A stretch of 64,000 bases of DNA, taken from assembly GCA_902769535.1 (NCBI GenBank), contig CACXPH010000003.1, positions 1-64,000 on the forward strand, read 5' to 3'. Positions 925-62,601 of this stretch are shown here, piece by piece. A program made the translations under genes and the position numbers. The notes beneath the pieces are model-generated. The model saw only the letters and a list, made by a program, of their open reading frames with translations, was not told where the DNA came from and did not search any database. Source of the stretch: an uncultured Bacteroidales bacterium. GTDB lineage: Bacteria; Bacteroidota; Bacteroidia; Bacteroidales; Paludibacteraceae. The first letter of the stretch is position 1, and each line of letters begins with the position of its first letter.

Positions 925-952
925 TTGAAAATTGAAAAATGAAAATTGAAAG
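925..952. repeat. 7-bp word array, TTGAAAA x4, between rpsR and rplI
   Basis: Four head-to-tail heptamers (TTGAAAA, TTGAAAA, ATGAAAA, TTGAAAG) fill the gap between the rpsR stop and the rplI start. It belongs to a series of locus-specific word arrays across the window. The last unit runs into the AGGAG that precedes the rplI start. Confidence 0.9.
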
Positions 953-961
953 GAGAAAAGT

Positions 962-1405
962 ATGGAAGTAATTTTGATACAAGACCTTGCTAATCTGGGT
1001 TTCAAGAACGACATCGTAAAAGTACGTGACGGCTACGGACGCAACTACCTGCTGCCGCAGAAGATTGCTATCATCGCAAACGAGAGCAACAAGAAACAGT
1101 TGGCTGAGAACCTGAAACAACAGGCTCACAAGGCTGCTAAGATTCTGGCAGACGCACAGGCTCTGGAGGCTAAACTCGCAGAAACCGTAATCGAGGTTAA
1201 GGTTAAAGCTAACGAGGACGGAAAGATCTTCGGTACTGTTACCACACAGAATATCTCTGACGCGCTCAAGGCACAGGAGATCATCATCGACAAGAAGGTG
1301 ATCACGATTGCAGAGCCGATCAAGGAGGTTGGTGAGCATACCGCACAGGCTCGTCTGCACCGCGAGGTTAAGGCTGAGATCAAGCTGAATGTAGTAGCTG
1401 AGTGA
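962..1405 (+). CDS. rplI: 50S ribosomal protein L9
   Basis: Elongated large-subunit protein that binds 23S rRNA near the L1 stalk. The 147 residues start with the family signature MEVILIQDLANLG, then VKVRDGYGRNYLLPQKIA in the N-terminal RNA-binding domain. An Ala/Lys-rich connecting helix spans about residues 40-75, and the C-terminal domain (VKANEDGKIFGTVT) follows. A short AGGAG lies upstream of the ATG. It is followed by a heptamer word array and then rpmE. Confidence 0.97.
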   Translation: MEVILIQDLANLGFKNDIVKVRDGYGRNYLLPQKIAIIANESNKKQLAENLKQQAHKAAKILADAQALEAKLAETVIEVKVKANEDGKIFGTVTTQNISDALKAQEIIIDKKVITIAEPIKEVGEHTAQARLHREVKAEIKLNVVAE

Positions 1406-1440
1406 GTAAAGTTTAAAGTTTAACGTTTAAAGTTTAAAGA
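1406..1440. repeat. 7-bp word array, TTAAAGT x5, between rplI and rpmE
   Basis: Five tandem heptamers (GTAAAGT, TTAAAGT, TTAACGT, TTAAAGT, TTAAAGA) begin directly after the rplI stop and end six bases before the rpmE start. The word is different from the one 480 bases upstream although both are A/T-rich. Confidence 0.9.
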
Positions 1441-1446
1441 AAGACT

Positions 1447-1701
1447 ATGAAACAAGGAATTCATCCTGATAACTACCGCGTAGTAGTTTTCAAAGATATG
1501 TCTGACGGTACTCAGTTCTTCAGCCGCTCTACAGCCGCTACCAAGGACACGATTGAGATTGACGGCGTTCAGTATCCGCTTATCAAGCTGGAGATCTCGA
1601 ACACGAGTCACCCGTTCTACACCGGTAAGTCCAAACTCGTGGACACCGCAGGTCGTGTGGACAAGTTTATGTCTCGCTACGGCAACCGCACTCGCAAGTA
1701 A
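1447..1701 (+). CDS. rpmE2: 50S ribosomal protein L31, type B (zinc-independent)
   Basis: Large-subunit protein at the subunit interface. The 84 residues show the type B pattern: [17 protein letters not shown] at the start, [21 protein letters not shown] near the C-terminus, and no CxxC zinc motif. That absence separates type B from the zinc-binding type A. It sits behind rplI on the same strand and is closed by a strong terminator, so it probably ends the S6-S18-L9 transcript. Confidence 0.95.
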
Positions 1702-1708
1702 TGCGGGC

Positions 1709-1747
1709 AATAATAAGGGCGGGCTACTATGCTCGCCCTTATTATAT
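1709..1747 (+). terminator. intrinsic terminator after rpmE
   Basis: A 14-bp stem (TAATAAGGGCGGGC pairing with GCTCGCCCTTATTA, one G-U) with loop TACTAT is followed by TATTT. It directly follows the rpmE stop and separates the ribosomal operon from the transporter gene. Confidence 0.85.
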
Positions 1748-1751
1748 TTAT

Positions 1752-1779
1752 GATTTAAGATTTCAAATTTAGGATTTAT
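1752..1779. repeat. 7-bp word array, GATTTAA x4, upstream of the PnuC-like gene
   Basis: Four heptamers (GATTTAA, GATTTCA, AATTTAG, GATTTAT) occupy the space between the rpmE terminator and the next start codon. The ATG at 1778 overlaps the last unit. Confidence 0.75.
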
Positions 1780-2536: not shown

Positions 2537-2547
2537 ATTGTTAAGAT
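2516..2547. repeat. 8-bp word array, GTTAAATT x4, at the pnuC/rluA boundary
   Basis: Four octamers (GTTAAATT, GTTAAAAC, GTTAAATT, GTTAAGAT) encode the last residues of the PnuC-like protein (VKLLKR), contain its stop and reach the start codon of the next gene. Confidence 0.85.
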
Positions 2548-3466
2548 GATAAAGCGTAAAGCAGATACTGTATTGAAAGTGGCAGAGCCGGCGGCTTTGA
2601 TGGATTTTCTCATTGCTAAGATGGGAGGCATGGCGCGTTCGTCGGTTAAGCAGTTGCTTGGTCAGCGTCGCGTGAAGGTGGGTAATGCTATTCAGACGCG
2701 GCATGATTTCGCGTTGAAGGCAGGCGATGTTGTGACCGTTTCTTCGGGAAGAGGGAACAGTCAGTTGACGCACCCGAAGTTGAAGATCGTCTATGAGGAC
2801 GACGACCTGATTGTGGTGAATAAGCAGCCGGGACTGCTGACCGTTGCTGCCACGCCGGGTAGTTCAGAGACGACCGCCTACTCTATCCTACGCGCGTACG
2901 TTAAAAAGCAGAACGCGCGCGCGGGTATATACGTCGTGCATCGGCTGGATCGCGAGACAAGTGGTTTGTTGGTATTTGCTCGTTCGGAAGAGCTACAGCA
3001 TTATATGCGCGAATATTGGCGTGAGTTGGTGACGGAGCGGACGTATATCGCCTTAGCTGAAGGTGTGCTAAATCCGAGAGAAGGACAGATCAAGACCTGG
3101 TTCACGGAGGACAAACGCAATGCGATGGTCTATTCGTCGCCGGTGGACGACGGAGGAGATCTGGCGATTACGAACTATAAGACGCTGCGCGTCTCAGAGG
3201 CGAAGGGCGAAGGGCTAGAGGCTAAAGGGTATTCCCTTGTAGAACTGCATCTGGAGACCGGTCGGACGAACCAGATCCGCGTACATCTTGCAAGCAAGGG
3301 TTGTCCGGTTGTGGGAGATAGAAAGTACGGTCACGGCAATGAGAGCAGTCCGATAGACAGGCTGTGTCTGCACGCGAAAGTGCTGGCATTTATTCATCCG
3401 GTGACCGAGAAGACCGTGCGTTTCGAGAGTCCCGTTCCGAAGGAGTTTAATCGCGTGTTAGTATGA
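2546..3466 (+). CDS. RluA-family pseudouridine synthase
   Basis: Converts uridine to pseudouridine in rRNA or tRNA. The 306 residues have an N-terminal S4 RNA-binding domain (about residues 15-75, MARSSVKQLLGQRRVKVG) and the RluA catalytic domain with HRLDRETSG at 132-140, where Asp135 is the catalytic aspartate. TGRTNQIRVHLASKGCPVVGDRKYG is the typical C-terminal RNA-contacting motif. Residues about 218-228 (EAKGEGLEAKG) are encoded by a tandem 7-bp array and look like a loop insertion. It overlaps the next gene by 4 bases. The exact target site cannot be assigned from sequence. Confidence 0.92.
   Translation: MIKRKADTVLKVAEPAALMDFLIAKMGGMARSSVKQLLGQRRVKVGNAIQTRHDFALKAGDVVTVSSGRGNSQLTHPKLKIVYEDDDLIVVNKQPGLLTVAATPGSSETTAYSILRAYVKKQNARAGIYVVHRLDRETSGLLVFARSEELQHYMREYWRELVTERTYIALAEGVLNPREGQIKTWFTEDKRNAMVYSSPVDDGGDLAITNYKTLRVSEAKGEGLEAKGYSLVELHLETGRTNQIRVHLASKGCPVVGDRKYGHGNESSPIDRLCLHAKVLAFIHPVTEKTVRFESPVPKEFNRVLV
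3199..3228. repeat. 7-bp word array, GGCGAAG x4, inside rluA-like gene
   Basis: Four heptamers (GGCGAAG, GGCGAAG, GGCTAGA, GGCTAAA) lie within the pseudouridine synthase reading frame. They encode a hydrophilic EAKGEGLEAKG stretch in what should be a surface loop between two strands of the catalytic domain. Confidence 0.85.
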
Positions 3467-4779: not shown

Positions 4780-4780
4780 C

Positions 4781-4810
4781 AAAAAACACGCCTTAAATGG
4801 CGTGTTTTTT
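4781..4810. terminator. bidirectional terminator between acetylesterase and lipoprotein genes
   Basis: A perfect 12-bp inverted repeat (AAAAAACACGCC / GGCGTGTTTTTT, loop TTAAAT) ends with T-runs in both directions. It serves the plus-strand esterase and the converging minus-strand lipoprotein gene. Confidence 0.9.
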
Positions 4811-4826
4811 GCATACGGCAGTAGGA

Positions 4827-5222: not shown

Positions 5223-5229
5223 ACTGATT

Positions 5230-7330: not shown

Positions 7331-7358
7331 ATTCAGAATTCAGAAGTCAGAATTCAGA
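7331..7358. repeat. 7-bp word array, ATTCAGA x4, inside the exb operon
   Basis: Four heptamers (ATTCAGA, ATTCAGA, AGTCAGA, ATTCAGA) fill the gap between exbB and the four-span protein gene, ending one base before the exbB stop codon. Confidence 0.9.
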
Positions 7359-9507: not shown

Positions 9508-9523
9508 TAATGTTTAATGTTTA
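9508..9523. repeat. 7-bp word array, TAATGTT x2+, at the queA/tatD boundary
   Basis: Two exact heptamers plus a partial third cover the queA stop codon and the gap to tatD. It is the shortest array of the series. Confidence 0.6.
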
Positions 9524-10698
9524 GAGAGAATGCTGCTATCCCCATAACTCAAGAAACGGAAATCGTGACTAAGGGCGTAGTCATAGATGGTGTGCCAGTC
9601 GCCTCCGACGAAGGCGCTCACGAGTAGGAGCAATGTAGATTGCGGTTGGTGAAAATTGGTAATGAGTTGATCCACTACGTGGAACTGATAACCAGGTTTG
9701 ATCATGATCTGCGTCTCTGCATGCAGGGTCTGCTGACCTGTGGCGTCCATCCAGTCAAGAAGGGACTGCAAGGCCTCACGCGTACTCATCGGATAGTCCT
9801 TTTCGTACGGTTCGAACTGGGATACATGGGCAGATTGAGAGCAGCCCATGAAATAGAGGCTCTCGAGCGTACGCATAGAGGTTGTTCCTACCGCCACTAT
9901 ATGTCCGAGTTTAGACAATATATGCGCGATTGCTTTGCGAGGCACGGCAATAATCTCCGTGTGCATAGTATGTTCGTTCGCATCGGCAGTCTTGACCGGG
10001 AGGAATGTACCGGCTCCGACGTGAAGCGTTACTTCTTCGGTTTCTATGCCGCGTGCATGCAGATCGTCCAGCACTTTGTCTGTAAAATGCAGACCGGCAG
10101 TCGGAGCGGCCACCGAACCTTTGATGCGCGAATAGACGGTCTGGTAAGTCGTCTTATCGGACTCCTCGGTTTTGCGGTTCAAGTACGGAGGAATTGGCAG
10201 TTCTCCTGCGGCATCAAGGATCTCAGCGAATGAGACGTTCTCTCCGCTCCATTCAAAACGCACGGCATAAGTATTTCCGATTGCCTCACCTTTGTACGCA
10301 CGAAGCGTATAGGAGCCAACCTGCATCTCTACGGGTTCGGCATGCCATTTCTTCGCGTTACCCACCATACATTTCCACGTACAACCGTTTGTAGAGGAGA
10401 GGGAGAGCTGGTAGTCGTGCGGAACTAGCGGTTCAAGGCAAAAGACTTCCACACGGGCACCTGTCGATTTGAAGAACTCCAGGCGGGCTTGTATGACGCG
10501 CGTGTTGTTATAGACAAGGAGTGCGTTCGGCAAGATATAATCGCCTACGTTATAAAAATGATCCTCGCTAACCTGTCCGTCGCGGTAGACGAGCAGTTTG
10601 CTGTGGTCTCGTTCGGACAGCGGGTATTTGGCAATCCGCTCGTCCGGTAAGGGGTAATTATAATCAGCGATATATAATGGTGATTGGTGATTGGTCAT
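9514..10698 (-). CDS. queA: S-adenosylmethionine:tRNA ribosyltransferase-isomerase
   Basis: Transfers the ribosyl part of S-adenosylmethionine to preQ1 at tRNA position 34, making epoxyqueuosine. The 394 residues contain family blocks YPLPDERIAKYPL, LLVYNNTRVIQARL, GSVAAPTAGLHFT, VTLHVGAGTFLPVK and TNFHQPQSTLLLLVSAF. It is about 40 residues longer than E. coli QueA. The first residues (MTNHQSP) are encoded by a 7-bp word array that starts in the previous gene's stop region, so the extreme N-terminus is probably not conserved. Confidence 0.95.
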   Translation of the reverse strand: MTNHQSPLYIADYNYPLPDERIAKYPLSERDHSKLLVYRDGQVSEDHFYNVGDYILPNALLVYNNTRVIQARLEFFKSTGARVEVFCLEPLVPHDYQLSLSSTNGCTWKCMVGNAKKWHAEPVEMQVGSYTLRAYKGEAIGNTYAVRFEWSGENVSFAEILDAAGELPIPPYLNRKTEESDKTTYQTVYSRIKGSVAAPTAGLHFTDKVLDDLHARGIETEEVTLHVGAGTFLPVKTADANEHTMHTEIIAVPRKAIAHILSKLGHIVAVGTTSMRTLESLYFMGCSQSAHVSQFEPYEKDYPMSTREALQSLLDWMDATGQQTLHAETQIMIKPGYQFHVVDQLITNFHQPQSTLLLLVSAFVGGDWHTIYDYALSHDFRFLSYGDSSILSKH

Positions 10699-10714
10699 TG
10701 GTTATTGGTTATTG
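10679..10714. repeat. 7-bp word array, GGTGATT x5, spanning stop and start codons
   Basis: Five heptamers (GGTGATT, GGTGATT, GGTCATT, GGTTATT, GGTTATT) contain both the stop of the THUMP methyltransferase gene (10702-10704) and the start of queA (10698), and encode residues at both ends. Confidence 0.9.
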
Positions 10715-19886: not shown

Positions 19887-20588
19887 TTACCAGTTACAGA
19901 TTCGGCAAGGATTCTTCGCTTGTCCAAATTCAAAAACCATGCCAACTGTTATCATTCCCGTTAGGTCACAATTCAAAATATTGCTTCCGTTAAGGCCATA
20001 GGTGTCGTTAAGGTTTAAGCCGTTTTCAATGTTATCCGCGAGATAGACGTTATGTTGCCAAGCGATGTTCAGTCCCGCGCGCTCGCTGAATTTCCACTTG
20101 AAGCCTATTCCGAACGGGAAATAAGCCATCACATGGTTGTACTTGGCATCTTTGTACCCGTTCGCGCCATATACACTGGCACCGATACCCAGGAAGATAT
20201 ACGGCGTGTAGGGTTTGAGTCGTCTATCGTACACACCGGACGAGCCGAAACGGAAGAAGTTAAACTCCGCTACAATGTCCGTGTTGATCAGTTGATTCTC
20301 CCATTTGGTATCGAGTCGATGCATGTCTTCGTCGTGGTTCCAGCCCGTTATACGTTGGGTGGTTGCCTTCACTTGGAGCGCCCAACGTTTGGTGAACTTA
20401 TAACGGAACTGCAGTCCGTACGCCTCACGCGGGTGCATGAAGATGTGCTCTGCGCCATCACCCACATAGTAACCGCAACCGGCTTGGAAACCCAGTTCGC
20501 ACAGATACGTCGGTCCTTCTGTCTGAGCAGACAGCGAACAACACAATGCGCTAAAAACGATTAATAATATATATTTCTTTTTCGTCAT
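19887..20588 (-). CDS. outer-membrane beta-barrel protein, DUF6089-like
   Basis: Predicted outer-membrane protein of 233 residues with signal peptide 1-21 (ending LSAQ) and a series of amphipathic strands: [36 protein letters not shown] and [20 protein letters not shown]. The pattern matches the DUF6089/porin-type proteins that sit next to uppS-bamA in Bacteroidota. The last residues NPCRICNW contain two Cys, unusual for an exported barrel, and lie just before the uppS start. Function unknown. Confidence 0.82.
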
Positions 20589-20618
20589 TACGTGATTACG
20601 TTATTTCGTAATTACGAT
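20587..20618. repeat. 8-bp word array, ATTACGTG x4, at the radA boundary
   Basis: Four octamers (ATTACGTG, ATTACGTT, ATTTCGTA, ATTACGAT) fill the gap between radA and the barrel gene. The array includes the radA stop (20612-20614) and touches the next start codon. Confidence 0.85.
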
Positions 20619-26073: not shown

Positions 26074-26940
26074 ATGGCTAAGATAGGTGTTTTTGATAGC
26101 GGATACGGAGGACTGACGATCCTACGCGAGATACGCAAGGTATTACCTCAGTACGACTATTTGTACCTGGGTGACAACGCGCGTGCGCCTTATGGCACAC
26201 ACTCGTTCGACGTCATCTATCGCTATACGCTCCAAGCCGTACAATACCTGCTGGACCAAGATTGCGCACTGGTCATTCTGGCCTGCAACACCGCTTCAGC
26301 CAAAGCCCTTCGCACCATTCAGCAACGCGACCTGCCTCTTATCAAAGATAAGAAAGTGAATGTACTCGGTGTGATTCGGCCTACCGTTGAAGCTGTGCCG
26401 GGTGTCACCCAAACCGGCCACGTAGGTGTTTTAGCTACTCCGGCAACGGTTAGTTCCGAGAGCTACGTGCTGGAGTTAGAGAAGATTGCGACTGATTTGA
26501 CCATCACCCAACAGGCTTGTCCTATGTGGGTGCCACTGATTGAAGCCGGCGAGCATCAGAGTGACGGCGCAAAGTATTTTGTAGGGAAGTACCTGCGGGA
26601 AATCTTGGCGAAAGACCCGCAGATCGACACGCTCGTGCTCGGGTGCACGCACTATCCGTTATTGAAAGAGAAGATAGAAGGTTGGTTACAATATCATCGT
26701 GAGATAGAAGCGTCTGAGTTTCCGAAACCGGAAAATGCTCCGATGATGCAGATTATTTCGCAGGGCGAGCTGGTAGCTCAGAGTCTGGCGGACTACCTGA
26801 AGCGGCATCCTGAGTACCGCGAGCAACTTTCAAAAAATGGGACTTGCACCTATCTGACCACAGAAAATGCGGATCGTTTCGCACAATCCGCATCGCTCTT
26901 TATCGGAGAGAATATATGTGCGCAGCACATCAATCTCTAA
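26074..26940 (+). CDS. murI: glutamate racemase
   Basis: Supplies D-glutamate for peptidoglycan. The 288 residues carry IGVFDSGYGGLT, YLGDNARAPYG, the first catalytic cysteine in LACNTASA (Cys71) and the second in LGCTHYPLL (Cys191). It is transcribed alone, divergent from dnaN. The stop codon is the first triplet of a 7-bp word array shared with the converging sufB. Confidence 0.96.
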   Translation: MAKIGVFDSGYGGLTILREIRKVLPQYDYLYLGDNARAPYGTHSFDVIYRYTLQAVQYLLDQDCALVILACNTASAKALRTIQQRDLPLIKDKKVNVLGVIRPTVEAVPGVTQTGHVGVLATPATVSSESYVLELEKIATDLTITQQACPMWVPLIEAGEHQSDGAKYFVGKYLREILAKDPQIDTLVLGCTHYPLLKEKIEGWLQYHREIEASEFPKPENAPMMQIISQGELVAQSLADYLKRHPEYREQLSKNGTCTYLTTENADRFAQSASLFIGENICAQHINL

Positions 26941-26965
26941 ACGCTAAACACTAAACGCTAAACGT
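26938..26965. repeat. 7-bp word array, TAAACGC x4, between murI and sufB
   Basis: Four heptamers (TAAACGC, TAAACAC, TAAACGC, TAAACGT) begin with the murI stop codon and reach the sufB stop, so the two converging genes share only this array as a spacer. No terminator hairpin is visible. Confidence 0.9.
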
Positions 26966-28402
26966 CTATCCTATAGATCCTTCGAGAGAAACTTGCAGCA
27001 GTTTCTGGGCTTCAACGGCAAACTCCATCGGTAGTTTGTCCATCACCTCTTTGGCGTAACCGTTGACAATGAGTCCGACAGCGTCTTCCACACCTATTCC
27101 TCTTTGCCTACAGTAGAACAACTGATCTTCATTGATCTTGCTCGTCGTTGCCTCATGTTCCACCGTGGCCGTGGGATTACTTATAATCATATCCGGGAAG
27201 GTGTGTGCACCGCATTGATCACCCAACAACAAACTGTCACATTGGCTGTAGTTACGGGCATTAATGGCATTCACACCCATCTTCACCAAACCACGATACG
27301 CATTCTGGCTATGCCCCGCCGAGATACCCTTCGAGATAATTCGACTGCGGGTATTCTTTCCGATATGAATCATCTTCGTGCCTGTATCTGCCTGCTGATA
27401 GTTATTAGTAACTGCCACCGAATAGAACTCCGCTGTGGAGTTATCGCCTCGCAGGATACAACTCGGGTATTTCCACGTGATAGCGGAACCTGTTTCCACC
27501 TGCGTCCAACTCAGGCGCGCGTTCTCAAACGTTATACCGCGTTTGGTGACGAAATTATAAATTCCTCCCTTACCGTTTTTATCACCCGGATACCAGTTTT
27601 GCACGGTCGAATACTTCACTTCCGCATCTTTATGCACCACGATCTCCACAATCGCCGCGTGCAATTGGTTCTCGTCACGCATCGGTGCCGTACAACCCTC
27701 TAGATACGAGAGATAAGCACCTTCATCCGCAATAAGCAGCGTGCGCTCAAACTGGCCTGTCTTACCGGCATTGATACGGAAATACGTACTCAGTTCCATC
27801 GGACATCTTACACCTTTCGGCACATAGACAAACGAACCGTCCGAGAAGACTGCAGAGTTCAGCGCCGCATAGAAATTATCCGTCGGTGGGACAACCGAAC
27901 CAAGGTATTTCTTCACCAAGTCCGGATGTTCACGCACGGCTTCCGAAATAGAACAGAAGATAATACCCTTCTCTGCCAACGTCTCGCGGAAGGTAGTCTT
28001 GACGCTCACCGAGTCCATAACGGCATCTACCGCCATATTACCCGCCAGCGCCGCGCGTTCCTCCAAGGGAATACCGAGTTTGTCGAAGGTCTTCATGATC
28101 TCTTCGTCAATCTCGTCTTTCTCGCCTTCCGCCTTCTTCGTTTTCGGCGCAGCAAAATACGAAATCGCCTGAAAATCTATCTCGGGAATCGTGAGGTGCG
28201 CCCACGTAGGAGGAACCATCGTCTGCCATTTACGGAAGGCCTTCAGACGAAACTCCAGAAGCCAATCAGGTTCCCCTTTCTTCGCAGAAATAAGCCGAAT
28301 GATGTCTTCATTCAGTCCTGCAGGCACGATCTCCGTCTCCACATCGGTCGTGAAGCCGTATTTGTACTCCTGAGAAGTTATGTCTTGAATTAAAGAATCC
28401 AA
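26966..28402 (-). CDS. sufB: Fe-S cluster assembly protein SufB
   Basis: Scaffold subunit of the SUF system. The 478 residues are typical: [50 protein letters not shown], and C-terminal [20 protein letters not shown] with the conserved cysteine. The only plausible start is TTG at 28402, immediately behind a word array; a stop lies four codons upstream and no ATG is available. SufC and SufD, normally adjacent in this phylum, are missing because murI converges directly behind. No promoter is evident, so it may be read through from tRNA-Cys. Confidence 0.93.
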
Positions 28403-28428
28403 ATCAAAAATCTAAAATCTTAAATCAA
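28401..28428. repeat. 7-bp word array, AAATCTA-type x4, at the sufB start
   Basis: Four heptamers (AAATCAA, AAATCTA, AAATCTT, AAATCAA) reach into the sufB start codon on the other strand, so the TTG start is part of, or made by, the array. Confidence 0.85.
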
Positions 28429-29485: not shown

Positions 29486-30699
29486 TCTACGTATAGTACT
29501 AATCCCTTCAGGTATTCGCCTTCCGGGTGGTAAATATTAATCGGATGGTCTTGCGGTTGATGCAGTTGGTGCAAGATCCGCACTTTGCGTCCCACTTGTG
29601 CTGCCGCACTAAACACTGCCAGCCGGAAAGCCTCCTTGTCCACCGCTTGCGAGCAGGAGAAAGTGAACAGTATACCTCCCGGACGAATCATCTCAATCGC
29701 CTTCGCATTGATGCGCTGGTAGCCACGAAGTGCGTTCTTCACCGCGTCACGATGCTTCGCAAAGGCCGGAGGATCGAGAATAATCAGATCATAAGTCTTA
29801 CCCTCTGCTTTCTGCGCACTCAGGTATTCAAACGCATCGGCTGCCACCGACGTGTGGTTCGTGGCTTTTGGGAAGTTCCGCGCTACGTTGACATTCACCA
29901 GATCAATCGCCTTCTGACTTACATCCACCGAGTCCACACGCTTCGCACCGCCTCGCAGCGCATAGAGCGAGAATCCACCGGTGTAACAGAACATATTCAG
30001 CACATCCTTGCCCTTCGCATAGCGCTCCACCAACGCACGGTTCTCCCGCTGGTCAATGAAGAAACCCGTTTTCTGTCCCCTTAACCAATCGATACGGAAC
30101 TGCAAACCGTTTTCCGTACTCCAAAACTCCGATTCATCCGAGTTATCCGATTGGATCAGATAACCTATCTTCTCCCCATCAACAGGCGCCTTGAACGGCA
30201 ACGTATCGTCCGACTTATAATAGACATTCTCCACCTGCGGGATCTCATCCAAAACAGCCTTTGCGATCTCGTTTCGATGCACGTGCATGCCCACGGAGTG
30301 CGCCTGTACCACCGCCGTATCGGCATAGACATCCACAATCAGTCCCGGCAGAAAATCACCTTCCCCGTGAATCAAACGAAACGTGTTATTATCCGGTCGA
30401 ATCAGTCCTATCGCCTCGCGCACTTGATACGCCGCACGGATACGTGCGTTCCAGAAATTCGCAGGCAGACTCTCTTCGCCGAAAGCCAAGATACGCACGG
30501 CGATAGAACCCACTTGCCAATGACCGACGCCAAGGCACTCATTCGCTGCCGAACGCACGCAGACAATCTCTCCCTCTTCCGGCGCAGAAGCCTTATGATT
30601 CGCGTCCAGCACGACCTTCGCAATCGCGCCACTGAACACCCACGGATGGAAACGCTTGAGCGATTCTTCTTTATGCGGTTTCAAAAAAATAGTTGTCAT
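29482..30699 (-). CDS. rlmI: RlmI-type 23S rRNA (cytosine-C5) methyltransferase
   Basis: S-adenosylmethionine-dependent methyltransferase with an N-terminal PUA domain (about 1-80, LKRFHPWVFSGAI), a central beta-hairpin and a Rossmann domain with LNMFCYTGGFSLYALRGGA (cofactor) and LIILDPPAFAK followed by FSCSQAV with the catalytic Cys. The length of 405 matches E. coli RlmI (396). Overlaps with both neighbours are four bases. The specific target cytosine is assigned by similarity. Confidence 0.92.
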   Translation of the reverse strand: MTTIFLKPHKEESLKRFHPWVFSGAIAKVVLDANHKASAPEEGEIVCVRSAANECLGVGHWQVGSIAVRILAFGEESLPANFWNARIRAAYQVREAIGLIRPDNNTFRLIHGEGDFLPGLIVDVYADTAVVQAHSVGMHVHRNEIAKAVLDEIPQVENVYYKSDDTLPFKAPVDGEKIGYLIQSDNSDESEFWSTENGLQFRIDWLRGQKTGFFIDQRENRALVERYAKGKDVLNMFCYTGGFSLYALRGGAKRVDSVDVSQKAIDLVNVNVARNFPKATNHTSVAADAFEYLSAQKAEGKTYDLIILDPPAFAKHRDAVKNALRGYQRINAKAIEMIRPGGILFTFSCSQAVDKEAFRLAVFSAAAQVGRKVRILHQLHQPQDHPINIYHPEGEYLKGLVLYVE

Positions 30700-35696: not shown

Positions 35697-35780
35697 TCAC
35701 GGGATAATATATATAAATATATATTATAGGGTGTACCAGGATACGATATACATAGGATATACATAGGACATAGATACGAT
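35697..35780. repeat. A/T palindrome and 11-bp word array, ATACATAGGAT
   Basis: A 22-bp A/T palindrome (TAATATATATAAATATATATTA, 35705-35726) is followed by 11-bp tandem units ATACATAGGAT (35748-35758), ATACATAGGAC (35759-35769) and ATAGATACGAT (35770-35780). No gene is seen between secG and the secreted-protein gene. Confidence 0.8.
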
Positions 35781-38890: not shown

Positions 38891-39883
38891 TTATTTTTTA
38901 TGCGCTACGACAAAAAGTTGGACGGAATTGAAGAGGTTCTGCCAGATGATATAAGCCGCAGCTCCAAGGGCTGCCAGCGGATTCAAATACGTCTGTGCCA
39001 TCCACACGCCAAGAGAAGTATTTTTCTGCCCGAAAGCCTGACCGGCTGTGATACTCGAAACACCCGCCATGGTTTTCGGCGCCGCTGCAGGGTTGATAAG
39101 CACGTCTTGATAGTCCGTGCCTTTGCTCGGTGCAGGCAGGTAATAACCAATCAGTTTGCCCAGACCGAACTGCAGCAAGCAAGCGAAGAACGAACCGATT
39201 AGCAGATAGATGATAGATGACAGATAAACCTCATAGTTATCCACTACATCTTTGGTAACCACCGCTGAAAGGACGATGATCGATGCTACCCAGAGATAGA
39301 ACGGAATAACTGCCAACCGTTTGGACAGCACGAACTCTTGTTTGGTGCGCGCCTTATAGAGCAGGCGAAGTATCCACGCGCCGAAGAAAGGTCCTAAGAG
39401 CAGTGGTGCGATGCGCGATAAGATCAACAGAAATGCCGGCCAGAACGTCATGTCCGCGGCAGGGTAAATGAGCGGAAAAGTAGCCGGTACAATAATTGCC
39501 GTCGCGAAGTTAGAAAGGAGTGTGAAGGTGGTGAGGTTTTGTATCGAGCCTCCCATCTTTCCGGCGATGATCGGTGCGGCTGTTGCCGTTGGCATAATAA
39601 AGCACATGAGCAGTCCTTGGGCCAACACCGCATCATTCGTCAGGTATAAAATACCTGCATAGGTCGCGAAACTGAAGAGTAATTGCGCTACGAGCACCGC
39701 CAAATGCCATTTATGCAGACGCAGATCCAACGGGTTGACCTTGCAGAAGGTGAAGAAGAGCATAAAGAAAATCCAGACCGGCAGCGTTGGTTTCAGCGGC
39801 AGGAACAGCTTATAGCCCACACAACCGATGAGCATCGACAACCACAAAGCGTTACCGTCAAAATATTTTCTTAATTGCCCCAT
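38891..39883 (-). CDS. bile acid:sodium symporter (BASS)-like transporter
   Basis: A 330-residue inner-membrane protein with about nine or ten helices and the BASS/AEC-type plan. The conserved segments are IMPTATAAPIIAGKMGGSIQNLT, a broken helix on the first inverted repeat, and GVSSITAGQAFGQKNTSLGVWMA, the equivalent in the second repeat with ion-binding polar residues. The substrate could be an organic anion. It overlaps the dus gene by 13 bases and ends the gldD operon. Confidence 0.85.
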   Translation of the reverse strand: MGQLRKYFDGNALWLSMLIGCVGYKLFLPLKPTLPVWIFFMLFFTFCKVNPLDLRLHKWHLAVLVAQLLFSFATYAGILYLTNDAVLAQGLLMCFIMPTATAAPIIAGKMGGSIQNLTTFTLLSNFATAIIVPATFPLIYPAADMTFWPAFLLILSRIAPLLLGPFFGAWILRLLYKARTKQEFVLSKRLAVIPFYLWVASIIVLSAVVTKDVVDNYEVYLSSIIYLLIGSFFACLLQFGLGKLIGYYLPAPSKGTDYQDVLINPAAAPKTMAGVSSITAGQAFGQKNTSLGVWMAQTYLNPLAALGAAAYIIWQNLFNSVQLFVVAHKK

Positions 39884-40887: not shown

Positions 40888-42788
40888 TTATTCAATGTCG
40901 GATAAGAGATTCGATGATGATTCATAGCCACAAGGCGAGTCGTGAACACACGACGGATATCTTCGACATCTTTGAACGAGAGCGGTGTTTCCGCGAACTG
41001 ACCATCGGCTATCTGGGCGTCAATCATGAGGTTGACTGTTTTCGCGATGGACTCTTCCGAGAAGTCCTCCAGACTACGTGAACGCGCTTCGATGGCGTCG
41101 GCCATCATAAGGATCGCGCCTTCTTTGGTACTCGGTTTGGCTCCCGGATAGCGGAAGAGCGATTCGTCCACTTTCTCTTTCGGGTGCGCGTTACAATAGG
41201 TGTTATAGAAATAGCGCACAAGCGAGGTTCCATGATGCGTGGTGATGAAGTTGATGATCACTTCCGGCAAGTGGTTCCGACGAGCAATCTTCTCGCCTTC
41301 CGTCACATGCGCCATGACCACTTGTGCGGCATCGCGCGGATCCATCGAGAGCAAGGGGTTCTCTACACCTGCCTGATTCTCTACATAGTAGAGCGGATCG
41401 GTGATCTTACCTATATCATGGTAGAGTGCACCCGTACGAACGAGCAACGCGTTCGCACCTATCGCCTTCGCTGCTTCCGCTGCGAGGTTAGAGACTTGCA
41501 TGGAGTGCTGGAACGTACCGGGCGCACGTTCAGCAAGCGTGTGCAGCAGTTCGGAGTTAATATCCGTCAGTTCGACAAGCGTGATGGACGAGATGAAACG
41601 GAACAGTTTCTCGAACGAATAAATAAGACCGTAACAACCGACCGTCAGCAGGGCGCAGATGACGAAATAGAGGTACATCCACGGATCAATCGACGTAATA
41701 GCACCTGTCTGTGCGAAGGTGATAGCGGTATAAGCCACCACCTGTGCAAGCAGTATCCATGCAGCCGTCTGCACGAGTTGCGCGCGGCGTGTCATGTCGC
41801 TAAGGGATGAGACAGCTACCATGCCGACCACTATCTGAATAAAGAAGAACTCTACCGGCGCAGGTACGACAATCGAGGTGATGAGGATCGTCGTAAAATG
41901 CAAGAAGAGTGCGGTGCGCGAATCGAAGAAGACACGCGTCAATATCGGAACCCACGCAAACGGGATAAGATAAACAGAGAGGTTAAACCGCAAAGCGAGG
42001 CACGCCAGACCGATGACGATAAACATCTGCAAGGCGAAGAAAAGCACCGTGGATGTCGAGCGCAGATAACATATGCGGAAGACGTAGAGGTACACCACAA
42101 AGAGGCAGAGGAACAGTAGTACCAGCATTGACTCACCAAGCACAGATAGCGTGCGCTGTTTGGTCCCAAGCGCCTCATCGTCGTACGCACGGCGGAGAGA
42201 CTGCAGCACCTGGTACGTGCGGTCGGTAATAATCTCACCTTTACCGACTATCTTTTCTCCTTTCTGCACCATGCCTTGTGTGGGCGAAAGAGTAGCTAAC
42301 ATCTTGCTGCGCAGGGACTCGGTGCGGGCAGTATCCAGAACGAGGTTCGTAGCACAGTCATAGCCGAACTTCTTATGCGCGGTCATCGGCGTATAGACTT
42401 CTGACAGCGGGTACTTGTTCTGGTTGATAGCGATACGTGTATAGCCCTCATTCTGCAACCACTCCATCGTCTCTAATGAAACGACTTTCACCTCCCGCTG
42501 CACGCGAGGGATATATTTGAAAATCGGCACAAAGGTAGAAAGCAACTGCTGCTGGTCTTTCTCCATCTGCTCGTCTGTCTTATAGATCGGGAAATCAAAA
42601 TCTGCCGTCAGCGTATTATATCCCCAGGGTTTGCCTAACTCAAAATGATAGCGGAAGGCATTGTTGTAACGCGGAAACATCAACACGATAATTGCCGCCA
42701 GCACGACAAAGACTCCTAAACGAAAGATAGTCGGTGAGTTCTTGGCTTTTACGATTTTTGATGTCAGATTTTGGAATTCGGGTTTCAT
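40884..42788 (-). CDS. pgpH: 7TM-HD family phosphohydrolase (PgpH-like c-di-AMP phosphodiesterase)
   Basis: Membrane-bound HD-domain enzyme, 634 residues. One N-terminal helix (about 25-42), an extracytoplasmic 7TMR-HDED domain to about 195, seven membrane helices (about 205-400), then the HD domain with FQHSMQVSNLAAEAAKAIG and TGALYHDIGK, FITTHHGTSL, and ILMMADAIEARSRS. This architecture matches PgpH, which hydrolyses c-di-AMP in Firmicutes and Bacteroidota. It overlaps its neighbours by 1 and 4 bases. Confidence 0.92.
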   Translation of the reverse strand: MKPEFQNLTSKIVKAKNSPTIFRLGVFVVLAAIIVLMFPRYNNAFRYHFELGKPWGYNTLTADFDFPIYKTDEQMEKDQQQLLSTFVPIFKYIPRVQREVKVVSLETMEWLQNEGYTRIAINQNKYPLSEVYTPMTAHKKFGYDCATNLVLDTARTESLRSKMLATLSPTQGMVQKGEKIVGKGEIITDRTYQVLQSLRRAYDDEALGTKQRTLSVLGESMLVLLFLCLFVVYLYVFRICYLRSTSTVLFFALQMFIVIGLACLALRFNLSVYLIPFAWVPILTRVFFDSRTALFLHFTTILITSIVVPAPVEFFFIQIVVGMVAVSSLSDMTRRAQLVQTAAWILLAQVVAYTAITFAQTGAITSIDPWMYLYFVICALLTVGCYGLIYSFEKLFRFISSITLVELTDINSELLHTLAERAPGTFQHSMQVSNLAAEAAKAIGANALLVRTGALYHDIGKITDPLYYVENQAGVENPLLSMDPRDAAQVVMAHVTEGEKIARRNHLPEVIINFITTHHGTSLVRYFYNTYCNAHPKEKVDESLFRYPGAKPSTKEGAILMMADAIEARSRSLEDFSEESIAKTVNLMIDAQIADGQFAETPLSFKDVEDIRRVFTTRLVAMNHHRISYPTLNK

Positions 42789-43939
42789 TATCGCTTCGAT
42801 TTAAAGAATTCTTGTATAAGTGCACGGCACTCGGCTTCAAGCACACCGGCCGTGACGGTTGCTTTGGGATGGAAGACCCGCGGCGCATATAGCGAATAAC
42901 CGCGTTTGGGATCGGCAGCGCCGTATACGATTCGACTTATCTGCGCCCAGCCAATCGCACCAGCGCACATCGGACAAGGTTCCACCGTGACATATAACGT
43001 AGCGTCCGGCAAATACTTCCCGCCTACCGTCTGTGCTGCCGCGGTGATAGCTTGTATCTCGGCGTGCGCCGTAACATCCTCAAGCGTCTCAGTCAAGTTA
43101 TGTCCACGACCGATGATCTGGTTCTGCGAGACGATGACACAACCGATAGGAATCTCATCTTGCGCAAGCGCTTTCTGCGCCTCCACGAGAGCGACGCGCA
43201 TGTAACGCTCGTCTTTTTCGTGATCTCGTGATCTCGTGATCTCGTGATCTCGACAGAAGTCTTTAAGCGACTCCGGATGCTGTTCAAAATGATTGCCGAT
43301 CACAACGATGTCCGCACCAGCGTCATAGGCTGCATTCATCGCCTCAGGCGTACGGATACCTCCGCCGACAATGAGGGTAATGGATGTGCTAGCACGAACG
43401 GCTTTGATGATGTCTACAGAGACAGGGATCTTCGCGCCAGAACCAGCCTCCAGATAGATAGCCTTCTTGCCCATTAGTTCCGCTGCTATACAGGTATCTA
43501 CAATCGTCGTTATATCGTTCGGATCGAGGGGTTGCGTCTGCGTCACGCGCATCGTAGAAGTCTCCACTCCGCCGTCAATCAGAACATAAGCCGTTGGGAC
43601 GAAATCTATGTGCGAATCACGAATAGCCCGAGCCGACTTAACCTGCTGATTTACAAGGTATTCCGGATTTTTACCAGACAGCAAAGAGAGAAACAAAATT
43701 CCGTCAGCTTTGGGACTAAATTGGGTTGCATCTCCCGGAAATAATATTACCGGGATTGATGATTTTAGACTTGAGATTTTAGATTTTAGAGAATCTATAA
43801 ACTCCGTCGTGTCACCGCCGGTCGAACCACCTACGAAGACATAGTCCGGATGACACGCTGCGGTAATGGGCAGCGCGTCAATATTTGCTTTCTCAGGATC
43901 AAGCAGCAAGGCCAAACTATGTTTCTTCGTTATTTCCAT
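42788..43939 (-). CDS. fusion of GGGP synthase (PcrB family) and tRNA adenosine deaminase TadA
   Basis: A 383-residue single frame joining two enzymes. Residues 1 to about 226 are a geranylgeranylglyceryl phosphate synthase-type barrel: LLLDPEK, VFVGGSTGGD, LFLSLLSGKNPEYL, YLEAGSGA and IVGGGIRTPE. Residues about 243-383 are TadA, which deaminates A34 of tRNA-Arg: HAEIQAI (His292, Glu294) and PCPMCAGAI (Cys322, Cys325). The linker (230-240) is encoded by four 8-bp repeats, and a further 7-bp array encodes residues 49-61 of the barrel. The two reactions are unrelated, so the fusion looks accidental. Overlaps with gldD (10 bases) and pgpH (1 base). Confidence 0.92.
   Translation of the reverse strand: MEITKKHSLALLLDPEKANIDALPITAACHPDYVFVGGSTGGDTTEFIDSLKSKISSLKSSIPVILFPGDATQFSPKADGILFLSLLSGKNPEYLVNQQVKSARAIRDSHIDFVPTAYVLIDGGVETSTMRVTQTQPLDPNDITTIVDTCIAAELMGKKAIYLEAGSGAKIPVSVDIIKAVRASTSITLIVGGGIRTPEAMNAAYDAGADIVVIGNHFEQHPESLKDFCRDHEITRSRDHEKDERYMRVALVEAQKALAQDEIPIGCVIVSQNQIIGRGHNLTETLEDVTAHAEIQAITAAAQTVGGKYLPDATLYVTVEPCPMCAGAIGWAQISRIVYGAADPKRGYSLYAPRVFHPKATVTAGVLEAECRALIQEFFKSKR
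43219..43252. repeat. 8-bp word array, CGTGATCT x4, at the fusion junction
   Basis: Four perfect octamers plus CG, the cleanest array in the window. Because 8 is not a multiple of 3, loss or gain of one unit shifts the frame between the GGGP synthase and TadA parts. Confidence 0.95.
43761..43790. repeat. 7-bp word array, GATTTTA x4, inside the GGGP synthase part
   Basis: Units GATTTTA, GACTTGA, GATTTTA, GATTTTA plus GA. On the coding strand they give DSLKSKISSLKSS, a polar insert between VGGSTGGDTTEFI and the strand IPVILFPG. Confidence 0.85.
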
Positions 43940-44523: not shown

Positions 44524-44532
44524 GTAAAAAAA

Positions 44533-44561
44533 GATGAAAGGTGAAAGGTTAAAGGTGAAAG
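44533..44561. repeat. 7-bp word array, GGTGAAA x4, between gldD and manC
   Basis: GATGAAA, GGTGAAA, GGTTAAA, GGTGAAA. It lies in the divergent gldD-manC promoter region and overlaps the -33 position of the gldD promoter. Confidence 0.9.
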
Positions 44562-44665: not shown

Positions 44666-45778
44666 ATGAATCAAAACAACTATTGCGTTATCATGGCAGG
44701 CGGAGTCGGAAGTCGTTTCTGGCCATACAGCCGCGCTGACAAGCCCAAACAGTTTTTGGACTTCTTCGGTACCGGCAGAAGTTTGCTGCAGATGACGGTG
44801 GATCGTTTTCGTCCGATCGTTCCGATCGAGAACGTCTATATCGTAACGAACGTAGCCTATAAGCAGATCATCCTGGAGCAAGTGCCGGACTTGAGCGAGG
44901 CGCAGATTCTCTGCGAACCGGCAAGAAGAAACACTGCGCCGTGCATCGCCTATGCGACAGCGGCTATCAAAGCGAAGACGAAAGAGGCGAATATCGTGGT
45001 AGCTGCAAGCGATCACTTGATTTTGGAGGAAGAGAAATTCCGCCAGACAATCGTTAAGGCTTTTGATTTTGTCAGCACACACCCTGCCATCTGCACACTC
45101 GGCATGCAACCTACCCGACCGGAAACTGGGTACGGATATATTCAGTTTGAGGCATTATCTAAGGACATTGGTAGGACATCGGAAGCACATTGCCAGCATA
45201 TTGATAGCACAACGGACGGTATTTGCCCGGTGAAACAGTTCAAGGAGAAGCCGAATTTGGAGACCGCGAAAGCGTATCTGGAAAGCGGAGATTATCTATG
45301 GAACAGCGGTATCTTCATATGGAGCCTGGAGACGATTAGTGCTGCCATCGAGAGCTATATGCCGGAATTGGCGCAGATCTTTGCACAAGGCGAAGGTATC
45401 ATCGGCACGGCAGGCGAGAAGGCATGGATTGACGAGAACTTCCCGAAATGTCCGAATATCTCGATTGACTACGGCATCATGGAGAAAGCCGACAACGTGT
45501 TTGTGCTGCCCTCGAGTTTCGGTTGGAGCGATTTAGGCACATGGGGCAGTCTGTATGAGTTAAGTGAGAAAGACGAGGCGCAAAACGTAAGCCTGCATAG
45601 CGAGGCGCATTTCTACGAGGCGGAAGGCAATATTGTGGTGTTAGAGCCGGGCAAAGTGGCAATCGTACAAGGCGTGAACGATATGATCATTGCGGAGGAA
45701 CGAGGCGCTTTGCTGATTTGCAAGAAGGCCGAAGAACAACGAATCAAAGACTTTACAAATAATTTACTTAATACTTAA
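44666..45778 (+). CDS. manC: mannose-1-phosphate guanylyltransferase
   Basis: Makes GDP-mannose from mannose-1-phosphate. The 370 residues contain the nucleotide-binding CVIMAGGVGSRFWPYSR, EPARRNTAPCIAYA, TRPETGYGYIQFE and VKQFKEKPN, and WNSGIFIWSLETI. Residues about 167-181, between the conserved GYGYIQFE and the VKQFKEKP block, are encoded by four 11-bp repeats and are extra to the family. The start at 44666 follows the promoter; the frame's earlier ATG at 44636 overlaps the -7 box. It heads the glycogen cluster, 7 bases before the next gene. Confidence 0.94.
   Translation: MNQNNYCVIMAGGVGSRFWPYSRADKPKQFLDFFGTGRSLLQMTVDRFRPIVPIENVYIVTNVAYKQIILEQVPDLSEAQILCEPARRNTAPCIAYATAAIKAKTKEANIVVAASDHLILEEEKFRQTIVKAFDFVSTHPAICTLGMQPTRPETGYGYIQFEALSKDIGRTSEAHCQHIDSTTDGICPVKQFKEKPNLETAKAYLESGDYLWNSGIFIWSLETISAAIESYMPELAQIFAQGEGIIGTAGEKAWIDENFPKCPNISIDYGIMEKADNVFVLPSSFGWSDLGTWGSLYELSEKDEAQNVSLHSEAHFYEAEGNIVVLEPGKVAIVQGVNDMIIAEERGALLICKKAEEQRIKDFTNNLLNT
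45165..45208. repeat. 11-bp word array, ACATTGGTAGG-type x4, inside manC
   Basis: Units ACATTGGTAGG, ACATCGGAAGC, ACATTGCCAGC, ATATTGATAGC. They encode a polar stretch (IGRTSEAHCQHIDS) between two conserved strands of the guanylyltransferase. Confidence 0.8.
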
Positions 45779-56020: not shown

Positions 56021-56041
56021 GGTTAACGGTTAAAGGTTAAC
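56021..56041. repeat. 7-bp word array, GGTTAAC x3, behind rpoD
   Basis: GGTTAAC, GGTTAAA, GGTTAAC between the rpoD stop and its terminator. The same word family recurs behind tRNA-Gln (62567). Confidence 0.8.
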
Positions 56042-58381: not shown

Positions 58382-58421
58382 CGTTTGCTAATTCAATTAC
58401 ACAAAAACCACTTTACGGGTG

Positions 58422-58469: not shown

Positions 58470-58515
58470 CACGCTTTTTTAATAACGTAAGTCAGAAATT
58501 TAATATACTATACCT

Positions 58516-61077: not shown

Positions 61078-61083
61078 TCAAGT

Positions 61084-62382
61084 ATGAAGAAGAATTTTGT
61101 AGAAGAACTGCGCTGGAGAGGCATGCTGCAAGACATCATGCCGGGTACGGAAGAGCAGTTGAACAAAGAGATGACTACCGCCTATGTGGGTATTGACCCG
61201 ACGGCGGATAGTCTTCATATCGGTCACTTGTGCGGCATCATGATGCTGCGCCACCTGCAGGCTTGCGGTCATAAACCGATTGCACTCATTGGTGGTGCAA
61301 CCGGTATGATCGGTGATCCGAGCGGTAAGAGCGCAGAGCGCAACCTGCTGACGGAGGAGATTCTGCGTCACAACGTACAATGCATCCGCGAGCAATTGGA
61401 GCACTTCCTGGACTTCAACAGCAACGAGCCGAATGCAGCCGAGTTGGTAAACAACTACGACTGGATGAAGGACTATACGTTCATCAACTTCACGCGTGAT
61501 ATCGGAAAACTCATTACCGTCAATTACATGATGGCGAAGGACAGTGTGAAGAAGCGTTTCAACGGCGAGTTCTCGCAGGGAATGTCGTTCACAGAGTTCA
61601 CGTACCAGCTGCTGCAAGGCTATGATTTCGTTTATCTGAACGAACACAAGAGCTGTCTGCTACAGATGGGAGGTTCGGACCAGTGGGGAAACATCACCAC
61701 AGGTATCGAGCTCATGCGTAAGATGAACGGTAAAACAGCCTTCGCGCTGACCTGTCCGCTGATTACCAAAGCAGACGGCGGTAAGTTCGGTAAGACCGAG
61801 AGTGGAAACGTTTGGCTCAGCAAGAAATACACGAGTCCGTATAAGTTCTACCAGTTCTGGATGAACGTGAGTGACGATGATGCCAAGCGTTATATTAAGA
61901 TTTTCACGAGTCTGAGTCGCGAAGAAATCGAGGCTCTGATCGCAGAGCACGAACAGGCGCCGCACTTACGTGTACTGCAGAAACGTCTGGCTAAAGAGGT
62001 AACCTGCATGGTTCACAGCGAGGCGGACTACAATGCAGCCGTAGAGGCATCAAATATCCTGTTCGGTAACGCTACAGCTGATGCGCTACGCGCTTTGGAC
62101 GAAGAGACGTTCCTGCAAGTGTTCGAAGGCGTAGAGCGTTATGAGATCAGCATGGAGGAATTGAAAGCCGGTATCGGTCCGTTGGATCTGCTGGCAGAGA
62201 AGACGAATATCTTCCCGAGCAAAGGCGAAGCGCGCAAGATGATTCAGGCGAACGGGTTCAGCATGAACAAAGAAAAGCTGACCGATCCGCAGACTCCGAT
62301 TACTGATGCAGCCTTACTCAACGGCAAGTACTTGCTGTTCCAAAAAGGCAAGAAAAACTACTATTTAGTAGTCGCTAAGTAA
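61084..62382 (+). CDS. tyrS: tyrosyl-tRNA synthetase
   Basis: Charges tRNA-Tyr. The 432 residues contain the HIGH motif in [46 protein letters not shown], and the KMSKS equivalent [12 protein letters not shown]-terminal S4 domain is present ([17 protein letters not shown]). Its pairing behind glgP is not functionally obvious. A weak GCACC-TAAAA-GTGC hairpin follows the stop. Confidence 0.97.
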
Positions 62383-62418
62383 AAAAAGCACCTAAAAGTG
62401 CAAAATTATTCGCAAAAA

Positions 62419-62450
62419 TTTGGTCAATTCAAAAATTTGTAGTAATTTTG
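62419..62450 (+). promoter_or_regulatory. promoter of tRNA-Gln
   Basis: TTTG (62419-62422) and TAATTTTG (62443-62450), 20-bp spacer. The transcript starts about 14 bases before the tRNA. Confidence 0.82.
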
Positions 62451-62470
62451 CACGCTTTTTTGAAAAGTGC

Positions 62471-62541
62471 TGTCCACTCGTATATCGGTATTACACCGGA
62501 TTTTGGTTCCGAGAAGCGAGGTTCGACTCCTCGGTGGACAA
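62471..62541 (+). tRNA. tRNA-Gln(TTG)
   Basis: A 71-nt tRNA: acceptor TGTCCAC/GTGGACA with the weak U1-A72 pair typical of Gln, discriminator A, anticodon loop TTTTGGT (TTG), D-loop ATCGGTA, T-loop TTCGACT. The first anticodon-stem pair is C-A. It is followed by a clear terminator. Confidence 0.96.
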
Positions 62542-62544
62542 CAA

Positions 62545-62568
62545 GAAGGCTGCGTAGGCAGCCTTTGT
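62545..62568 (+). terminator. terminator of tRNA-Gln
   Basis: AAGGCTGC-GTAG-GCAGCCTT followed by TGTT. The T-tract is short. Confidence 0.75.
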
Positions 62569-62601
62569 TAACGGTGAAAGGTTAACGGTTAAAGGTTAAC
62601 G
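62567..62601. repeat. 7-bp word array, GTTAACG x5, upstream of rplY
   Basis: GTTAACG, GTGAAAG, GTTAACG, GTTAAAG, GTTAACG between the tRNA-Gln terminator and the rplY leader. Confidence 0.92.

Follow-up and report, generated by a model that had tools for sequence, protein, structure and literature searches.

Heptamer arrays in a genus of Paludibacteraceae-like Bacteroidales tend to follow the replication strand

The DNA considered here is a 64,000-nucleotide stretch (hereafter the window) of contig CACXPH010000003.1 from an uncultured Bacteroidales bacterium, in which short words are repeated head to tail at many sites, most often with a period of 7 bp. The excess of heptamers and the idea that they arise by slippage are already in print; what is new is that the strand of these heptamer arrays on which G exceeds C tracks the skew of the replication strands. 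We lean towards regarding the arrays as by-products of chromosome replication, on which selection and short-patch recombination acted later. The window is contig C3 of a 1.89-Mb assembly that is 85% complete, and its source is a Paludibacteraceae-like Bacteroidales metagenome-assembled genome (MAG); the best 80 relatives of its rplI protein (76–99% identity) occur in MAGs assigned to Paludibacteraceae, Bacteroidales or Bacteroidia, and many of these MAGs were recovered from the gut of ruminants, the rumen included.

Orientation Along the Replication Strand

Arrays were detected with Tandem Repeats Finder (TRF) and with an independent lag-match scan, in which segments matching themselves at lag p (match +1, mismatch −2) were counted from a score of at least 11. 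The window genome was sampled twice, over 464 kb and later over 862 kb (46% of the genome). Replication skew is the GC skew at fourfold sites of genes on both strands; 4 of 44 bins, which had no skew value, and arrays with G = C were left out of the bin test.

Heptamer arrays have a mean |GC skew| of 0.77, compared with 0.27 in non-coding 30-mers, and the strand on which they have more G than C matches the regional skew for 102 of 136 arrays and the gene strand for 53 of 119. Across ten genomes of the genus, including that of the window, 85 of 106 arrays at loci with |skew| >0.03 agree with replication skew. The 862-kb sample gave agreement for 76 of 99 arrays at |skew| ≥0.05 and for 17 of 19 decided bins, seven more being tied or empty (contig-level sign-flip p = 0.017), against 103 of 190 random non-coding 31-mers. 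In gaps between co-directional genes, 21 of 26 arrays follow the skew when the genes point with it, and 19 of 26 when they point against it. On the strand that carries the G excess linked to replication, by convention the leading strand, the arrays are C-poor rather than G-rich: C amounts to 9.5% there, versus 19.2% in non-coding DNA, and G is similar (19.9 vs. 20.2%).

Relative to genes, no sense or antisense preference was found (25 vs. 24 in co-directional gaps, 21 vs. 18 in genes), and a site acting at the mRNA level was rejected for this lack of sense bias. The share of in-gene arrays whose G>C strand is the gene strand is an unstable figure, 19/56 in five genomes and 31/56 in the window genome. 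Neither period 11 (12/29) nor period 8 (6/11) has a replication-strand bias in the 862-kb sample.

Abundance and Distribution

The preference for period 7 noted in the first-pass annotation of the window is real and goes beyond composition. Boundary sequence (non-coding DNA plus 30-bp pads) held 57 period-7 arrays in 62.3 kb of the 464-kb sample, against a mean of 0.2 in ten dinucleotide shuffles, and 93 in 114 kb of the 862-kb sample, against 0.0 in 20 shuffles. Other periods in the larger sample were represented by 32 boundary arrays at 11, 18 at 8, and 11 at 14, with at most six at each remaining period from 3 to 30 and none at period 6. Gene interiors contained 38 period-7 arrays in 401 kb of the first sample and 67 in 747 kb of the second, where period 8 occurred three times, period 11 never, and no period other than 7 more than eight times; the in-gene density of period-7 arrays is thus about one-ninth of that at boundaries. 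Median array lengths are 31 bp for period 7, 29.5 bp for period 8 and 43.5 bp for period 11. An array lies in 31 of 98 gaps of 20–40 bp, and gaps between convergent genes carry 0.93 arrays per kb; gaps between divergent genes have a reduced density. The period-11 arrays form a separate class, absent from the 747 kb of gene interiors, with a median host gap of 279 bp and no strand bias; besides the one at 35741–35776 of the window, examples include L106:10760, L105:3550 and L114:991, among others.

Period-7 arrays reach 20.5 per 100 kb in the window genome, 20 in its relative G003 and 25 in G006 (28 kb only), and range from 0 to 12.5 in ten further samples of the same genus. Eight other Bacteroidales families (615 kb, G+C 0.30–0.51) gave 0–1 per 100 kb. 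A phylum-wide sample of 20 stretches gave zero save for G031 and G036 (10 each, from a single 20-kb stretch each) and G022 (5). The density survey drew on 1 to 464 kb per sample, the stretches of G057 and G029 being left out of its phylum part (G+C 0.00, presumably N). G031 and G036 (L182, L183), from another family of the phylum, bear GGGTTAC heptamer arrays of up to eight copies. The dominant period differs among genomes: the boundaries of heptamer-poor G010, of the same genus, hold 12 period-11, 5 period-8 and 2 period-7 arrays, and its period-8 arrays include L219:789 (TGAGGAGA x12.5).

Words and Species Vocabularies

The word had been described as locus-specific and nearly unique to each site, a description that has to be abandoned: 100 period-7 arrays of the window genome include 142 pairs with one circular word in common, where shuffling the letters of the words gives 18 ± 4 such pairs and drawing non-coding heptamers at random gives 9 ± 4. 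The commonest word classes are AAATCAT (14), AACCCGT (5), AATCACC (4), AAAGGTG (4) and AAATTTC (4), beside many others. The words share a loose grammar, are more alike when nearby and differ by species. Alignment free of rotation and strand yields AMYYWYM on one strand (5.35 bits vs. 4.50 ± 0.08 shuffled), and 17.5% of pairs within 10 kb differ by a distance of at most 1, versus 9.8% of other pairs (p = 0.001). At loci of the rplI region this proportion is 14.1% within species and 7.3% between (permutation p = 0.001); the excess of exact word identity within species at these loci is not significant (p = 0.09).

The pattern (AATCWYM)x3 was found in 79 of 121 same-genus genomes, and its counts relative to those of its backward reading diverge widely (53 vs. 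0 in G147, 0 vs. 43 in G125, 2 vs. 50 in G183). These are large species differences only, not mutual exclusion, since at least five of both patterns occur in 14 genomes, against 14.6 expected. A Spearman value of −0.46 owes part of its size to the restriction to genomes with five matches or more, and the accompanying chi-square counts overlapping matches of a single array repeatedly.

A special mutable column within the word, of the kind that reverse-transcriptase-like targeting would leave, was considered and dropped, the variants being only mildly concentrated. Columns with at least three states numbered 15 against 10.3 ± 2.6, 4 against 4.1 ± 1.7 and 30 against 22.1 ± 3.8 in three sets of period 7, and 3 against 1.5, 1 against 1.6 and 18 against 11.6 ± 2.6 at period 8; period 11 equalled expectation.

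Turnover and Probable Exchange Between Species

Word, period and copy number do change at orthologous boundaries of related species, so that the outcomes named as refuting in the first-pass annotation are for the most part not seen, with two exceptions: the array at 10678, identical in G003, and a TAAAGTT array that recurs in scattered species with the same imperfect third copy. Boundary-by-boundary comparison of the window with its relatives covered up to 22 loci per boundary, and heptamer alleles at these boundaries, alleles at the rplI boundary and the pseudouridine synthase loop described below were compared by eye. Among 93 loci at the boundary after rplI, 40 carry a period-7 array, 12 an array of another period and 41 none (score ≥9), which makes 24 period-word classes. 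Words at orthologous boundaries carry little phylogenetic signal. On a 90-row neighbour-gene tree (a quick tree with long outer branches and possible misjoins, from which L002 and L009–L012 were dropped as duplicates of other loci or of the window), the minimum numbers of word changes at four boundaries are 40, 33, 23 and 15, compared with shuffled means of 43.4, 38.4, 23.9 and 15.8 and lowest values of 40, 37, 22 and 13 in 200 shuffles.

Close species pairs exhibit unit-length copy changes, presence or absence of arrays, and replacement of the word throughout an array. CTTTCAA at L023:8944 corresponds to TTGTCAA in L067 and L025, and CCGTAATC at L023:9614 to ATCGAAAT in L025, the word being replaced in every copy; other arrays of close pairs are identical, imperfect copies included. 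The window and G003 are collinear, and G003 lacks arrays at 20583, 26937, 28401, 44530 and 56021.

Distant species may also share an allele. L065 and the distant L073 have a 105-nt loop allele that is 98% identical in genes that are 72% identical, whereas L066, a near relative of L065, has a 9-residue loop. In L055 and L087 (genes 80% identical) the heptamer part is identical and the palindrome-like part less alike, and L072 and L041 (genes 82–85% identical) have the TAAAGTT boundary in common. In L065/L073 and in L055/L087 high identity does not reach beyond about 35 nt from the insert; in L072/L041 it extends into a conserved gene. We read these alleles, from their pattern of identity, as probable short recombination patches of roughly 100–200 bp.

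Arrays Inside Genes

Twenty in-gene arrays of G000 and G003 have a sampled ortholog. Eight are clear in-frame insertions of 4–12 residues; eight rows represent four sites with an array in both species (same or different word), two have a longer ortholog and two are ambiguous. Since a heptamer without stops is read as one and the same seven-residue cycle in every frame, AATCACC-like words yield cycles such as ITNHQSP. One loop of a pseudouridine synthase (PF00849) is 9 residues long in 22 of 55 matched sequences and contains a period-7 array (score ≥8), with many different words, in 17 of 55. The loop homologous to window positions 3190–3230 also receives G+C-rich in-frame inserts that are palindromic by eye (L029, L038, L039, L055, L058, L059, L064, L087 and others), joined to a heptamer array in L055 and L087. 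These palindrome-like inserts look like a separate small dispersed element.

Origin of the Arrays

Three features speak for mutation at the fork as the source and for selection as a later step: the arrays are oriented by the replication strand rather than by the gene, they are inserted into coding loops, and their phylogenetic signal is weak. At the replication fork, strand-specific slippage or template switching that prefers a 7-nt step would write a word, C-poor on the G-excess strand, about four times over, giving an array of about 30 bp. The arrays would then mutate, gain or lose units and undergo concerted replacement; such slippage or local template switching would account for the period, the unit changes and the replacements. 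Copied or converted within the genome, arrays would give each species its own vocabulary, and they would pass between species as short recombination patches, which would explain both the vocabularies and the shared alleles. Most arrays would have no function. They would survive mainly between genes, and within proteins when in frame and stop-free; the lower densities in gene interiors and between divergent genes fit selection against insertions.

The first-pass annotation had tied the arrays to gene boundaries, where 14 of the 19 that it listed do lie; since arrays of the same kind occur in genes, several as in-frame insertions, this tie is at least partly a survival effect. Its suggestion of a protein footprint as the cause of the number 7 is not favoured, because orientation tracks the chromosome strand rather than the gene. 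Tentatively, and with low confidence, one could go further and imagine an active fork-associated repeat-writer of fixed 7-nt step and strand polarity that goes on adding a word in about four copies, with existing arrays serving, by way of single-stranded DNA at the fork, as templates for further arrays and species vocabularies drifting as a result.

Several observations weigh against an origin in replication. When the skew threshold is lifted, agreement weakens to 95 of 142 arrays and to 22 of 32 decided bins (p = 0.05). Window arrays at 26.9, 28.4 and 30.9 kb oppose the direction of 22 of 24 arrays in G003; one binning gives a negative skew around 26.9–30.9 kb and another a slightly positive one, an inversion was rejected on account of the collinearity of the window with G003, and the three arrays remain exceptions. 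A check by pattern alone in five of nine further genomes selected (G138, G154, G158, G169 and G184; arrays collapsed by hand, contigs with at least two arrays only) placed 37 of 46 arrays with the contig majority, where 33 were expected (p = 0.047), and is biased, several of the genomes having been picked for unequal strand counts. Some phylogenetic word signal is left at the first two of the four boundaries, a possible seed was seen in a single pair (L030/L088, 1.6 vs. 4.6 copies), and some arrays are perfectly conserved, such as that at 10678 in G003, whose flanking proteins are 80–83% identical. The GGGAATC arrays of Xanthomonas are reported to be without leading or lagging preference (Rehm et al., 2015, PMC4692102).

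Moreover, no gene was tied to array formation among the candidates examined (MutS, Y-family polymerases, RVT_1 and Y1 transposases). Loss of mismatch repair was rejected, a MutS domain being present in 21 of 21 genomes. Slippage by a Y-family polymerase was promising in 13 same-genus genomes and failed in 121: PF00817 has no match in the array-rich G125, G114 and G089, and G187, G169 and G183 are by elimination among six further non-matches (assemblies 82–98% complete in both cases). RVT_1 was not found in 10 of 13 same-genus genomes, including the array-rich G000, G003 and G006 (assemblies 75–95% complete), and a Y1 transposase domain gave no match in G000 and weak matches in G003 and G006. 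Y-family polymerases and RVT_1 do not track the arrays, nor do Y1 transposases appear to.

Other origins deserve consideration. The arrays could be selected regulatory sites, heptamers in mRNA leaders or in DNA that bind a protein or tune translation between neighbouring genes; the frequent filling of short gaps, the identity of the 10678 array in G003 and the recurrence of the TAAAGTT allele would suit such a role. We nevertheless find it rather doubtful, as the arrays favour neither sense nor antisense, vary in word, period and presence between close species at the same boundary, are inserted in proteins in the same form and occur between convergent genes. Species vocabularies, locally similar words and composite palindrome-like inserts (by eye) resemble spreading elements, and could be the work of a dedicated mobile or template-bearing system (a reverse transcriptase, a telomerase-like enzyme or a transposase of the repetitive extragenic palindromic type) inserting ready-made repeats. 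Such a system is quite unlikely in view of the distribution of RVT_1 and Y1 domains given above and of words that are diverse for a single template.

An orientation that follows the replication strand independently of genes would also be expected of polar chromosome signals that, in the manner of KOPS or Chi, are recognized by a translocase or a nucleoid protein. All polar signals known to us consist of a fixed word, whereas the words here vary between species and within one genome, and about a quarter of the arrays are wrongly oriented even above the skew threshold; a role of this kind thus appears very improbable. Lastly, the source genomes are MAGs, which might suggest an assembly artefact, or else a chance periodicity of A/T-rich intergenic DNA. 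Identical arrays recur in separately named assemblies, however, and chance and composition are ruled out by the nearly empty shuffles and by the scarcity of arrays in eight other Bacteroidales families, so that the likelihood of either is negligible.

Arrays of the Window

All 19 arrays listed by the first-pass annotation were recovered by TRF and the lag-match scan, with the periods it had given (14 of 7, three of 8 and two of 11). According to our own gene calls, made with a simple codon-usage caller (start positions approximate), 14 lie in or across gene boundaries and five inside genes (3199, 30875, 43219, 43761 and 45165).

The period-7 array TTGAAAA x3.9 (925–951) separates rplI from the preceding gene, presumably rpsR, and TAAAGTT x4.7 (1407–1439, period 7, third copy TAACGTT), the allele found in scattered species, separates rplI from the next gene, which we take to be rpmE. 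Gene 1778–2536 has an ATTTAAG-type period-7 array upstream (1746–1770) and the period-8 array GTTAAATT x3.6 across its stop (2516–2544). Further gene boundaries carry the period-7 arrays ATTCAGA x4 (7331–7358), TAATGTT x2.3 (9508–9523), an AAATCAA type (28401–28426) and GGTTAAC x3 (56021–56040), and the period-8 array CGTNATTA x4 (20583–20613). TGGTGAT/TGGTTAT x5.3 (10678–10714, period 7) spans a two-gene boundary and is identical at L122 of G003. CTAAACG x4 (26937–26964, period 7) lies between convergent genes; the gap in G003 is −4, and an array is lacking there. The period-11 array ATACGATATAC x3.6 (35741–35776) is intergenic, and a period-7 array, alternatively of period 14, GGTGAAA/GGTTAAC (62573–62599), follows tRNA-Gln and is absent in G002. 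AAAGGTG x4.6 (44530–44561, period 7) lies between divergent genes by our calls. At about 44600 the GC skew becomes positive and the main gene direction flips, with arrays close by in the divergent gap.

Inside genes, the period-7 array GGCGAAG/GGCTAAA (3199–3228) is an in-frame insert in the pseudouridine synthase loop, and TTCTGAC/ATCTGAA (30875–30913, period 7), in gene 30696–31187, has a counterpart of different word at the same place in G003. The open reading frame 42788–43939 fuses a PcrB domain (residues 3–224) to a deaminase-like domain (about 241–383); the period-8 array TCGTGATC x4.4 (43218–43252) lies in the linker (residues 229–240), which differs in the G003 ortholog, and an AGATTTT-type period-7 array (43767–43790) in the same gene has a G003 array at the same place. 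A weak period-11 array of AAGGACATTGG type (45162–45203, score 10) lies in gene 44666–45778. At least one in-gene period-7 array is additional to the original 19: GATAGAT x3 (39205–39225), inside the gene ending at 38891 and also in G003.

Relation to Known Heptamer Repeats

Short tandem heptamers within one genome are also known from Calothrix and Nostoc as short tandemly repeated repetitive (STRR) sequences, which consist of a few fixed words, and cyanobacterial protein peptides such as ITNYQLP resemble the ITNHQSP inserts described here. The Rickettsia palindromic elements are likewise small in-frame protein inserts; they are palindromes of one family, whereas the inserts here are tandem words, and the palindrome-like loop inserts are the nearer match.

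With the heptanucleotide simple sequence repeats (SSRs) of the kind described by Mrazek and by Rehm, the arrays share the over-representation of 7-nt units relative to neighbouring unit lengths, a mostly intergenic location by density, about four units and variability between relatives. The heptamer arrays of Xanthomonas and Nostoc belong to one G-rich, quadruplex-forming word family per organism, GGGAATC or GGGGA(C/T)T (Rehm et al., 2015, PMC4692102). Like ours, they have a heptamer unit, mostly four units, imperfect copies and strong length and sequence variation among relatives, and are mainly intergenic near genes, scarce between divergent genes and few within genes (PMC4692102). Our arrays depart from them in using many words and switching between them, in being biased along the replication strand and in forming inserts within proteins that stay in frame; the repeat regions of that study are more conserved than controls (PMC4692102), which is not the case here. 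The 100 arrays of the window genome do not form a single G-tract word family (GGGA/GGGGA), and the absence of a leading or lagging preference does not extend to them (76/99 follow the skew at |skew| ≥0.05, 95/142 without threshold). Three tandem heptanucleotides are mentioned for Calothrix (PMC4692102).

TAACTGA direct repeats occur in Beggiatoaceae, in some Cyanobacteria and in five Bacteroidetes, and Paludibacter propionicigenes has two sets of them; binding of a cold-shock or S1-like protein, or a translational role, was suggested, and other heptamer repeats are mentioned in some TAACTGA-bearing intergenic regions (MacGregor, 2015, PMC4679880). Heptamer arrays near start codons, in Bacteroidetes among others, are common to both cases, but TAACTGA is one fixed word, related words being rarely repeated in the main genome, whereas many words without gene-strand preference are found here (PMC4679880). 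TAACTGA is not among the 25 commonest word classes of the window genome, and the arrays do not preferentially run forward to the start (25 sense, 24 antisense). Apart from the few TAACTGA sets (PMC4679880), the literature searches made returned no paper on heptamers in Bacteroidales. Mrazek et al. (2007) reported seven as the commonest unit of long SSRs in most surveyed genomes and proposed slippage related to polymerase contacts, as cited in PMC4679880 and PMC4692102. Our arrays differ from those long SSRs in having imperfect copies and a short median length of 31 bp.

Significance

The dominance of 7-nt units in bacterial repeats has so far been explained, in the papers cited, only by the suggestion of polymerase slippage (PMC4679880, PMC4692102). 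The strand bias gives the polymerase-contact proposal of Mrazek et al. (2007) a testable sign, and the suggestion becomes testable in a genus whose arrays are dense, strand-biased, variable between close species and recognizable in proteins as inserts that keep the frame. Tandem words at gene boundaries should, as a matter of caution, not be taken as regulatory sites by default. The arrays supply new sequence, intergenic as well as coding, that seemingly moves between species in short patches. If the more tentative idea of a fork-associated writer were true, intergenic DNA and protein loops would be continually rewritten throughout the genus, and heptad peptides of the ITNHQSP type would be its visible product.

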